From positions 62,001 to 126,000 of the forward strand of contig CAJWUI010000002.1 in assembly GCA_913047695.1 (NCBI GenBank): 64,000 nucleotides of DNA, read 5' to 3'. This DNA comes from an uncultured Bacteroidota bacterium (GTDB lineage Bacteria > Bacteroidota > Bacteroidia > Flavobacteriales > Flavobacteriaceae). Under the pieces are notes generated by a model, which was not told the origin of the DNA, ran no database searches, and saw only the letters and a program-made list of their open reading frames with translations. Positions 44,885 through 48,266 of this stretch are shown here, in pieces (position 1 is the stretch's first letter; every line of letters starts with the position of its first letter). The translations under genes and the position numbers were made by a program.

Positions 44885-45253
44885 ATGATAAAAGACAGTG
44901 CATGGAGACCATTACCCGATTTTTTAACAATTGGTAACAGCAAAATTGAGGGATTAGGACTTTTTGCATTAAAAGACCTGCCTGAGGGAAAAGATTTAGG
45001 AATGACACATATTTTTGATAAAAGATTTAAAGACCAATATATAAGATTACCTCTTGGAGCATTTATCAATCACCATGAAATACCAAATTGTGATGCGATT
45101 TTTGCAGATTTTGATCCGGAAATAGGGGAGATCAAGCACATACGAATAATAACTTCCAAAAAAATAAACAAGGGAGAGGAAATTACAGTCAAGTACATAA
45201 TAAACAAACTTAAAAACCCAAATTGGGAGCATGAATACGAAGCTACCCAATGA
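44885..45253 (+). CDS. Stand-alone SET-domain protein
   Basis: A 122-residue protein comprising little but a SET domain: IEGLGLFALKDLPEGKDL near residues 20-37, the SAM/pseudoknot motif GAFINHHEIPNCDA near 58-71 and GEEITVKYIINK near 98-109 with the conserved Tyr. SET proteins methylate lysine with SAM; in bacteria the substrates are mostly undefined. A Cys-rich post-SET zinc region is missing. There is no obvious partner; the DUF2490 gene is 118 bp upstream. Confidence 0.8.
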   Translation: MIKDSAWRPLPDFLTIGNSKIEGLGLFALKDLPEGKDLGMTHIFDKRFKDQYIRLPLGAFINHHEIPNCDAIFADFDPEIGEIKHIRIITSKKINKGEEITVKYIINKLKNPNWEHEYEATQ

Positions 45254-45520
45254 TATATTCTAATATTGTCTAGAAAAATTATTACTTAAATCTAAATCTG
45301 TTTTCAATAATTGTAATTTCTAAATAAAAATAATATTTATAATTAAAATCGTTTTTTGCTACAAAATTTAATTATAATTTTTCATTATTAAATAAAGGTA
45401 TTGAAAGTATGGTCTCAAAAATTAGTGTTTAAATACTGGATTATTAACAATCTGTTAATTATTTATACTATTTTTTGCTAAAAACATAATTAAAAACTTA
45501 AATTCTTACAGAGATTTTAT
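45254..45520. other. AT-rich gap without a gene
   Basis: No plausible reading frame on either strand. The stretch holds two copies of the 10-mer TTTTTTGCTA (45352-45361 and 45471-45480) and a perfect 7-bp inverted repeat ATTAACA-ATC-TGTTAAT at 45443-45459. The promoter and small RNA described next occupy the right-hand end of the gap. Confidence 0.5.
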
Positions 45521-45528
45521 TACTTTTG
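45521..45528 (+). promoter_or_regulatory. -7 box for the small RNA (TACTTTTG)
   Basis: Exact TAnnTTTG about 41 nt upstream of the terminator hairpin. No TTG occurs at the usual distance; TTA and TTC at 45497-45506 are the closest. The predicted start is near 45534. Confidence 0.5.
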
Positions 45529-45533
45529 CAATA

Positions 45534-45600
45534 TCAATTCTTCGAGAAATGAATTGGTTTATGGTTATAGCCTTTGGGAATAATTCCCAAAGGCTTTTTT
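45534..45600 (+). ncRNA. Candidate small non-coding RNA, about 67 nt
   Basis: A -7 box, a first hairpin (CAATTC and GAATTG, 45535-45540 with 45551-45556, 10-nt loop TTCGAGAAAT), a 12-nt linker and a strong terminator hairpin form a compact transcription unit with no reading frame. It lies in a 410-bp intergenic region, 64 nt before the next gene, which lies beyond the terminator. The two-hairpin layout recalls small conserved RNAs described in Flavobacteria (for example the Flavo-1 motif), but I cannot verify a match. It could alternatively be a leader attenuator. Confidence 0.55.
45569..45600 (+). terminator. Strong rho-independent terminator of the small RNA
   Basis: AGCCTTTGGGAA and TTCCCAAAGGCT form a perfect 12-bp stem with the 3-nt loop TAA, followed by TTTTT. 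It does not follow any coding sequence on the plus strand within 300 nt, which is why a short RNA is proposed. Confidence 0.88.
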
Positions 45601-45663
45601 AATAGATCTGTTTATTTAAGTAGGTCCTAAATTTATCACAATTAAAAGAATCTATATTTAAAT

Positions 45664-46485
45664 TTGAGAATGTATCAATTTTTTTTAGCTACTATGATCT
45701 GTTTTGTTGGATTTACTCAGATTTCCTATAGATCATTTAAATTACCTAAATCAGTCTCAGAAACATCTGGACTTGAATCCTTTGGCAACTATCTGATAAC
45801 ACACAACGACTCGGGTGATAAACCAAAACTTTATGTAATTTCTAGTAGTGGGGAAAAAATAATTGAGATAAAAATTAATAATATAGAAAATAATGATTGG
45901 GAGGATATTTCGTCAGATTCAGACCACTTTTATATTGCTGATACTGGAAACAAATATGGAACAAGAGAAAATTTAAAAATATACATTCTGAATAAAAATT
46001 TTATACTTAAAGGGTCCATAGGAATTAAATACTCTAGACAGTCAAATTATATAAAGAACAAAAAAAGTGAATTTGATGCTGAAAGTTTAGCTGTTGTTGG
46101 AGATGAATTGGTCTTGTTTTCTAAAAATAGGAGAACATTGAAATCAGAAATATATGTTTTTCCAAAAAAAAAGGGAAACTATATCCTAGAACCAAAGGCA
46201 ACAATTAATTCGAAAGCCCTTATTACAGGTGCCGATTATGATGATATCAATGACCTTATGGTTTTAACAGGATATAGTTTGAAGGGCGATCAATTTATTT
46301 TTAAAATAAATAATTTTAAAGGGAATAGTTATAAAAACTTAAAGCTTGACCGATATAAAATACCAGTTCGAAATTCACAGATTGAAGCTATTAAAATAAT
46401 TAATCAACAAGAGTTTTGGGTTAGTTCTGAAAGTGAAGAACAAAACACACCCAGCTTATTTCGTATCAAAATAGAATCAGAATAA
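45664..46485 (+). CDS. Secreted protein, probable beta-propeller
   Basis: A 273-residue exported protein not assigned to a named family. A signal-peptide-like segment (to about residue 19) is followed by repeated strand-turn units: SETSGLESFGNYLITHNDSG, NNDWEDISSDSDHFYIADTGN, SEFDAESLAVVGDELVLFSKN and SKALITGADYDDINDLMVLTG. The spacing of D/E-rich turns suggests a propeller like SdiA-regulated or NHL proteins. Start is either TTG at 45664 or ATG at 45670; TTG is kept because it gives the signal peptide a basic residue. Confidence 0.65.
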   Translation: MRMYQFFLATMICFVGFTQISYRSFKLPKSVSETSGLESFGNYLITHNDSGDKPKLYVISSSGEKIIEIKINNIENNDWEDISSDSDHFYIADTGNKYGTRENLKIYILNKNFILKGSIGIKYSRQSNYIKNKKSEFDAESLAVVGDELVLFSKNRRTLKSEIYVFPKKKGNYILEPKATINSKALITGADYDDINDLMVLTGYSLKGDQFIFKINNFKGNSYKNLKLDRYKIPVRNSQIEAIKIINQQEFWVSSESEEQNTPSLFRIKIESE

Positions 46486-47264: not shown

Positions 47265-48266
47265 GTGAGAATTTTTTGGGTCCTCTTATTTATTAGTTCA
47301 CTAAACCTTAAATGTCAGGATATTTACTTTCCAAATAATATTGATGCTATTGGATTTGGATATTGTAATCGAACAGATTTAGACCAGAAAATTTGGGATG
47401 TTATAGTAAATAAGTCAATAAATGCTTGGGTTTGGTTGGGTGATATAGTCTATACTGAAGGGGAAAGTATGGATAATTTTGCTTTAAAATATTCAATTCA
47501 AAAATCACTACCATCTTACAGAAAATTATCTTCCCACACAAATATATTTGGAGTTTGGGATGATCACTATTTTGGGAAAAATGTTGGAGGAGTCGGATTT
47601 AGAAAAAAACAGCAGAGTAGAGATTTATTATTTGATTTTCTTGATCTTCCTACTAATCATCCTGCAAAGGAGAGAACTGGTGCATATCAAAGTTATTGTT
47701 TTGGAGATAATCGACAAAAAATATGCCTATACCTTTTAGATTTAAGATATTTTAAGGAGGAATATGAAAAAGATTTTAGTTCAAAACAATACTACAAAAA
47801 AAATAATGGGAGTTTATTGTGAGAAAAACAATTGAAGTGATTGGATAAAGAATTATTGAAAAATGGTGCAGAAGTAAATTTGCTGGCAGGAGGGATATAA
47901 TTAATTTCTTCTGAACACCCCTATGAGAAATGGGCAAATTTTCCTAAGGCCAGGCAGTGCTTATTTAATTTCCTAAAAGAAAATAAGATAAAAAACCCAA
48001 TATACTTGAGTGGTGATCCTCATTTTGCTGAGATTTCTATTATTGAACTTCTCCCAAACTATAGACTTTACGATATAACTTCAAGTGGTTTAACTCATTC
48101 ATATGAATATTTGGAAGAAGAATTTAATCCTAAAAGAGCAAGTCCATTAATTACAGCTAAAAATTTTGGAATCATTAAGTTGAATTGGGTTATTAGAAAA
48201 ATTGCTTTGCAAATTTACAATATTGATGGCAGGGTTTTGTTTGAAAAAACCATCAAAATTCAATAA
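47265..48266 (+). pseudogene. PhoD-like alkaline phosphatase, disrupted by three in-frame stops
   Basis: A single 333-codon frame reads as a PhoD-family phosphatase/phosphodiesterase from the GTG at 47265 through the final IQ. Metal-site blocks survive: WLGDIVYTEG near residue 57, FGVWDDHYFG near 95 and YLSGDPHFAEI near 246, as well as SSEHPYEKWANFPKARQ near 213. The frame is cut by TGA at 47820, TGA at 47838 and TAA at 47898, all in phase with no indel. The surrounding wording predicts Gly, Trp and Gln/hydrophobic at those codons. The first TGA replacing a Gly argues against UGA read as Trp. Recent decay is most likely; sequencing error is possible. Confidence 0.85.

Follow-up and report, generated by a model that had tools for sequence, protein, structure and literature searches.

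The question raised by the 410-nt spacer at 45254-45663 is whether it carries an RNA gene of its own and, if so, on what such an RNA would act. The spacer lies in the analysed window, a 64,000-nt stretch of a 1.96 Mb genome (G000; 18 contigs, 89% complete) from a Flavobacteriaceae genus, and an initial annotation had placed a small RNA gene at 45521-45601. The elements on which that proposal was built (the gap, an exact TAnnTTTG box, a hairpin with a 10-nt loop, and a 12-bp terminator stem with a T run) are all present, and the spacer is found to hold a predicted sRNA gene on the plus strand, as do all the features given below. The -7 promoter box TACTTTTG (45521..45528) matches the consensus TAnnTTTG (PMC9723704), and, with its ends placed from this box and the T run, the predicted sRNA of ~69 nt would span 45533..45601. 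The fold and its conservation define the 5′ arm of hairpin 1, AUCAAUUC (45533..45540), and the fold gives the 3′ arm (45551..45558); the CAATTC/GAATTG pairing around the 10-nt loop is lengthened by folding to 8 pairs, including one U.G. Hairpin 1 is followed by a single-stranded linker and by an intrinsic terminator (45569..45600) made of a perfect 12-bp stem (45569-45595) with a 3-nt loop and the T run. For the 70 nt of 45533-45602, the folding energy is -24.3 kcal/mol (z = -4.2), a value that none of 200 shuffles equalled, and a terminator search of 45200-45700 returned the sRNA terminator as its single hit, with 0.1 expected.

The locus is conserved throughout most of the genus. The spacer is matched in 32 of 37 genus genomes (G000 included; the G016 match lies outside the core) and weakly in one of 23 others, while R1, a covariance model built from 27 loci, yields matches at E <= 0.01 in 34 of the 38 genomes of the genus. 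The four genomes where R1 finds nothing (G005, G015, G018, G028) are 57-85% complete, and a broader model gives a candidate in G028. When R1 was applied order-wide, two of 246 genomes were matched, G000 and G116, the latter by a bare terminator behind a gene end. Exact matches to the core pattern in named genomes comprise 28 stretches titled Flavobacteriaceae, Flavobacteriales, Flavobacteria or Bacteroidetes, mostly uncultured, with MS024-2A among them. Among 29 orthologous loci, 17 carry an exact -7 box and all carry one with at most one mismatch, the one-mismatch test being a lenient one. All nine modelled pairs of the terminator show changes on both sides in a 38-sequence alignment with a mean column identity of 60%. 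For hairpin 1, the initial annotation had suggested looking for compensatory changes: it is conserved in the genus, by near-invariance and with no compensatory change there, its 3′ arm belonging to the seed described below, and in some other genera it is weak or re-arranged. Taken together, the conserved box, the terminator and the syntenic conservation support the identification of 45521-45601 as a small RNA gene which, at the sequence level, has its own promoter and intrinsic terminator, as a trans-acting sRNA should.

The linker is conserved at least as well as the hairpins. The 16-mer AAUUGGUUUAUGGUUA between them (45552..45567), hereafter the seed, is exact in 28 of the 29 orthologous loci, and GGUUUAUGGUUA is identical in all 29; the 3′ arm of hairpin 1 takes up the first 7 nt of the seed, so that UUAUGGUUA stays free. 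Other copies in the genus, recovered with a whole-RNA model, have differing terminators and promoters and a shorter or altered first hairpin, and most of those printed retain the 16-mer, either unaltered or with a single change (L073 is seedless). Several model matches per genome occur in relatives such as G001, G030, G447, G591 and G614; G000 itself gives a single clear copy besides a 35-bit candidate and a 29.7-bit match (G000:C7:103422-103501). The 35-bit candidate (C2:5094-5168; L089, L400), with the seed AGTTGGTTTATGGTTT before a terminator, is possibly a second sRNA of the family in G000, and the G028 candidate (L388) resembles it. G030 holds an additional copy (L137:4352-4426 on the minus strand, that is, G030:C16:204352-204426), which lies ~1.2 kb from a different one.

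Across the family, 19 of 397 genomes and 13 of 237 genera contain the exact 16-mer. In seven genera (g1, g144, g160, g213, g247, g253, g255), a terminator follows it and a hairpin usually precedes it, the constancy of the seed in the members from other genera being partly built in, as these were first found via the seed; in the other six genera with the exact 16-mer, there is no terminator behind it. Several candidates were discarded in this survey: L224-L228 and L234, with an exact seed outside the seven genera, were dropped as lacking a terminator; L237, L244 and L245 proved to be target-like leaders instead of sRNAs, and L248 is neither. A phage origin was also rejected: the 16-mer is common in viral contigs, yet none of the 120 matches listed precedes a terminator. 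On the best reading of these comparisons, the sRNA appears to be one member of a paralogous family with a common seed.

What the seed could recognize became apparent from a near-match search of G000, where the opposite strand bears a repeat directly before start codons, UAA(C/U)(C/U)AUAAAUCAAUU-AAA-AUG. This mRNA leader block, UAAYYAUAAAUCAAUU across the genus and UAAYYAUAAAYCAAUU in its wider form, is complementary to the seed and can pair with all of its 16 nt if G.U pairs are allowed. There are 18 perfect wobble sites in G000, the sRNA itself included, against 7 for a control pattern, and 12 of the 17 non-sRNA sites sit 3-5 nt before an ATG; within the 64-kb window, the real seed has no perfect-wobble target. 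Over the 38 genus genomes, the wobble complement followed by NNNATG was counted 292 times versus 3 for the reversed control (36 of 38 genomes positive), with 24 sites in the richest genome (G030). With 1000 shuffled seeds, the mean on the G000 target stretches was 0.003 versus 9 for the real seed, in stretches that had been chosen for their sites and with identical leaders merged, the genome-wide 292 versus 3 being the fair control. The conserved seed is, in other words, complementary to several mRNAs encoded elsewhere, the other property expected of a trans-acting sRNA. Among 124 leaders with at most 4 mismatches from the consensus, a sample biased because a pairing site was the reason for retrieving most stretches, the block ends exactly 3 nt before the ATG in 108; 90 pair fully and 34 do not. 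The most variable positions, -16 and -15, face a G of the sRNA, and 86 of their 94 changes are C to U. The block was also met in two viral contigs before a 10-codon frame, which was taken as chance.

The calculated energies agree with pairing at these sites. Seed-only duplexes at 17 G000 sites range from -9.7 to -17.7, with 15 of the 17 at -13.7 or below, against a median of -6.0 and a best value of -13.6 for 50 ORF starts of the window. Co-folding of the whole sRNA was printed for 12 examples, most of which show the duplex with an intact terminator and an open hairpin 1; this calculation separates targets from controls less sharply, the weakest sites having -0.2, -4.8 and -5.4, and the best control -9.6. 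The 5′ arm of hairpin 1 contains AUCAAUU, identical to the 3′ end of the target block, which suggests strand exchange: the free part of the seed would dock first on the target, which would then displace the 5′ arm. The resulting duplex would cover the translation start and block initiation, and the tagged gene set would be silenced together. We consider it likely that this RNA belongs to a family of paralogous sRNAs acting in trans, and that it pairs with leader-tagged mRNAs across their translation starts and represses the regulon that these form.

The sign of this regulation cannot be read from sequence, and the sRNA might instead activate or stabilize the tagged mRNAs on pairing, or the leaders might mainly act as a sponge for it, in line with the report that two predicted targets had less mRNA after Rfp18 was deleted in Flavobacterium psychrophilum (PMC9723704). 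We nevertheless regard this as unlikely and prefer repression, because a duplex that ends 3 nt before the AUG, as in the 108 leaders counted above, should hinder initiation, and GibS and FopS are described as repressing from such sites (PMC11697453, PMC7366714).

It is less probable still that the leader block is selected as a promoter-proximal or translation element, its complementarity to the sRNA being secondary. Several features of the block would suit such an origin: its conserved zone extends from about -22 to +8, beyond the 16 nt (in leaders chosen within 4 mismatches); U is nearly fixed at -9 (116 of 124 leaders), giving a G.U pair where C would pair better; and at the 14 positions other than -16 and -15, the same 124 leaders show 51 changes that break pairing versus 16 that keep it. 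In addition, G378 (genus g178) has three strict or near-strict sites (C4:122879, C5:111359, C6:40006), and no sRNA was detected in it or in its congener G567. Against this stand the reverse complementarity of two conserved sequences, the sRNA 16-mer and the leader block, the position of the 16-mer before a terminator in seven genera, the retention of the block by genes with differing upstream sequence, and the correlated occurrence of sRNA and block. Outside the genus, the wobble complement with NNNATG was found 41 times versus 24 for the control (197 family genomes, counted by hand), and some of these matches, in small genomes, represent this very leader block. Block and sRNA occur together in G360, G344, G447 and G455, the block of G455 having one more change. 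Among 199 family genomes, a strict block is present in five of the eight with an inspected exact-seed sRNA and in four of the 191 others (Fisher p = 2.7e-6), and any pattern match in six of eight versus 33 of 191 (p = 8e-4); the classes behind these values were set by eye and post hoc, and the genera are related, so that sampling is not independent. The four strict-block genomes among the 191 are G331, G378, G380 and G385; no seed-bearing sRNA was found in G331 or G385, and there was no model match in G380.

The neighbourhood of the gene bears on a further reading, namely that the element acts in cis, as an orphan terminator of the upstream gene or as a leader or attenuator of the downstream one. 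In every orthologous locus but L012 (28 of 29), a SET-domain protein gene (here 44885..45253, plus strand; PF00856, 41.6 bits) precedes the sRNA on its strand, and this gene serves as a synteny marker. The initial annotation had seen no nearby upstream plus-strand gene for the terminator to serve; this gene ends at 45253, ~280 nt before the predicted RNA start, so that read-through into the sRNA terminator is possible. The downstream gene at 45670..46485 (the "45664 gene", plus strand), for which Pfam and NCBIfam gave no match, adjoins the sRNA in G000, L003, L004 and L005, and the locus resembles, below threshold, the histidine operon leader (His_leader, RF00514; 26.3 bits versus a threshold of 49), with no histidine-gene match in five neighbouring ORFs of the window. 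Nonetheless, the cis reading is very improbable and was discarded on synteny: the locus has a -7 box of its own, the SET gene stands anywhere from 78 to 428 nt ahead of the seed across orthologous loci, same-seed copies elsewhere have different flanks, and a kynureninase gene in convergent orientation comes next in 24 of the 29 loci, 51-102 nt behind the start of the seed (identified from one copy at 228.5 bits, below the NCBIfam cut-off of 246.4). With such a neighbour, a promoter of the 45664 gene reading through the locus, which the initial annotation had named as grounds for rejecting an sRNA gene, is unlikely as a general explanation. In L027, neither the 45664 gene nor kynureninase was seen within the stretch examined.

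A coding role, with a 17-residue peptide as product and possibly a dual function for the RNA, is hardly credible and was dismissed on frame breaks: a 17-codon ATG ORF (45549-45602), missed by the initial annotation, which reported no reading frame, does overlap the seed and the terminator and keeps its ATG in all 29 orthologs, but the frame is shifted by indels in L013, L014 and L023, family members L063, L064, L190 and L232 have no ATG, and the frame enters the terminator stem.

If the locus is, as we favour, a repressing sRNA with a leader-tagged regulon, the tagged genes would be what it controls. Some of the 114 ORFs found behind sites are partial or duplicate, and a few of the sites, T001 and T004 among them, probably arose by chance; BLAST (E 1e-3) groups the ORFs into 27 clusters, 12 with at least two members (the largest with 41, 27 and 6) and 15 singletons. 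By eye, most of them start like signal peptides, as secreted or envelope proteins would, and the largest clusters consist of secreted-looking proteins and weakly SnoaL-like proteins; an "ABM-like" label for the largest cluster had no supporting match and was given up. Pfam had no match for nine of the ten G000 targets, the tenth being weakly SnoaL-like and under the cut-off, and a search for target function in PDB gave one weak match (E = 0.87). Other tagged genes encode a zinc alcohol dehydrogenase, a protein with DUF1059, membrane proteins of DsrE-like and YgaP-like type, and a protein resembling metallo-hydrolases, for which the matches listed fall short of their cut-offs. The target search also returned an ORF 25 nt from a one-mismatch site, which we take to be SusC-like, and the L137 locus has a secreted-looking gene behind a one-mismatch block.

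The sequences upstream of tagged genes are of several types, the leader block being the constant part. In many targets, a -7-like box can be seen by eye ~10 nt before the block, and the block therefore probably makes up most of the leader. Many tagged genes (L219 and L220 from G000:C8 and C2, also L204, L209 and L210) share an element like CATCGGCATATCCTCTTCATTAAGTTTAG before a TTTGTATATTG box; others have different common upstream elements, and these are possibly transcription factor sites.

The sRNA copies differ upstream as well. A palindrome TGTnAC-N4-GTnACA, presumably of the CRP/FNR type, occurs with at most 2 mismatches in 11 of 20 rows of other genus copies (10 of 19 without the repeated row, L137 repeating the L063 copy; 0.17 expected), in one of 29 copies of the window type and in none of the 15 that come from other genera. 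Among the genus paralogs L063-L076 and L081, about half carry it ~50-60 nt before the seed. Judging from these sequences, the paralogs may answer to different signals that feed one regulon. A broader proposal, whose chances we see as evenly balanced, is that the 16-nt block, making up most of a short mRNA leader, is a portable address acquired by many gene families in bacteria without Shine-Dalgarno sequences; that sRNA paralogs with different promoters, some apparently CRP/FNR-type, would all read this address; and that the whole would form a translational regulon with many inputs and one switch in small-genome marine flavobacteria.

Among described systems, the nearest in style are GibS and the FopS family of Bacteroides thetaiotaomicron; the 14 FopS paralogs of ~65-70 nt are reported to have canonical promoters, a seed in the 5′ part and mainly susC homologs of polysaccharide loci as targets (PMC11697453, PMC7366714). 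Like FopS and GibS, as these sources describe them, the present RNA is a Bacteroidota sRNA whose seed would pair at translation starts; unlike FopS, its seed lies between two hairpins, and its predicted targets are mostly genes other than susC homologs, with a standard leader block. Binding by RbpB, an RRM protein, is a further criterion of the FopS/GibS family. The RNA probably works like FopS/GibS; homology was not found among the 14 class-wide matches inspected. These matches come from a search of 395 class genomes with the model R2, which gave a match in 53, G000 included; none of the 14 loci inspected outside G000 bears the seed (12 differ at 4-6 of 16 positions, and two have nothing within 6), and they were read as chance terminators.

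Rfp18 of F. psychrophilum is, by its description, likewise a conserved flavobacterial sRNA with several predicted mRNA targets, metalloproteases and an adhesin, that share one pairing region, and differs in pairing through its third stem-loop and in lowering two target mRNAs when deleted (PMC9723704). The Infernal/Rfam check proposed along with the initial annotation yielded no family at gathering thresholds, either in the window or in 20 member loci, save one tRNA each. Besides His_leader, the best sub-threshold family for the locus is rteR (RF04181; 22.2 bits versus a threshold of 72, E = 0.42), which has the same order of hairpin, short linker and terminator, with a linker that aligns weakly. 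Flavo-1 (RF01705; PMC2864571), also a Bacteroidetes RNA motif and one that the initial annotation had mentioned without claiming identity, has no match up to E = 10 in 45254-45670. The open-licence literature contained no description of this RNA or, apparently, of a flavobacterial sRNA regulon of such a kind. A trans-acting sRNA with a conserved seed is a known kind of regulator, whereas a near-identical leader block used as an address across many gene families seems unusual.

From sequence alone, the analysis yields a predicted sRNA with its seed and as many as 24 sites in one genome, for a lineage represented mainly by uncultured genomes, and adds to the sRNA gene proposed initially a predicted regulon with a standard leader tag. 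With this set of sRNAs and leaders, one could test cleanly how sRNAs locate translation starts where Shine-Dalgarno sequences are missing, and gain an initial entry point to large families of proteins that look secreted and have no match in databases. Finally, further along the window, two neighbouring plus-strand ORFs at 47265-47822 and 48006-48266 give the impression of being two pieces of one gene, which we presume to be phosphodiesterase/PhoD-like.
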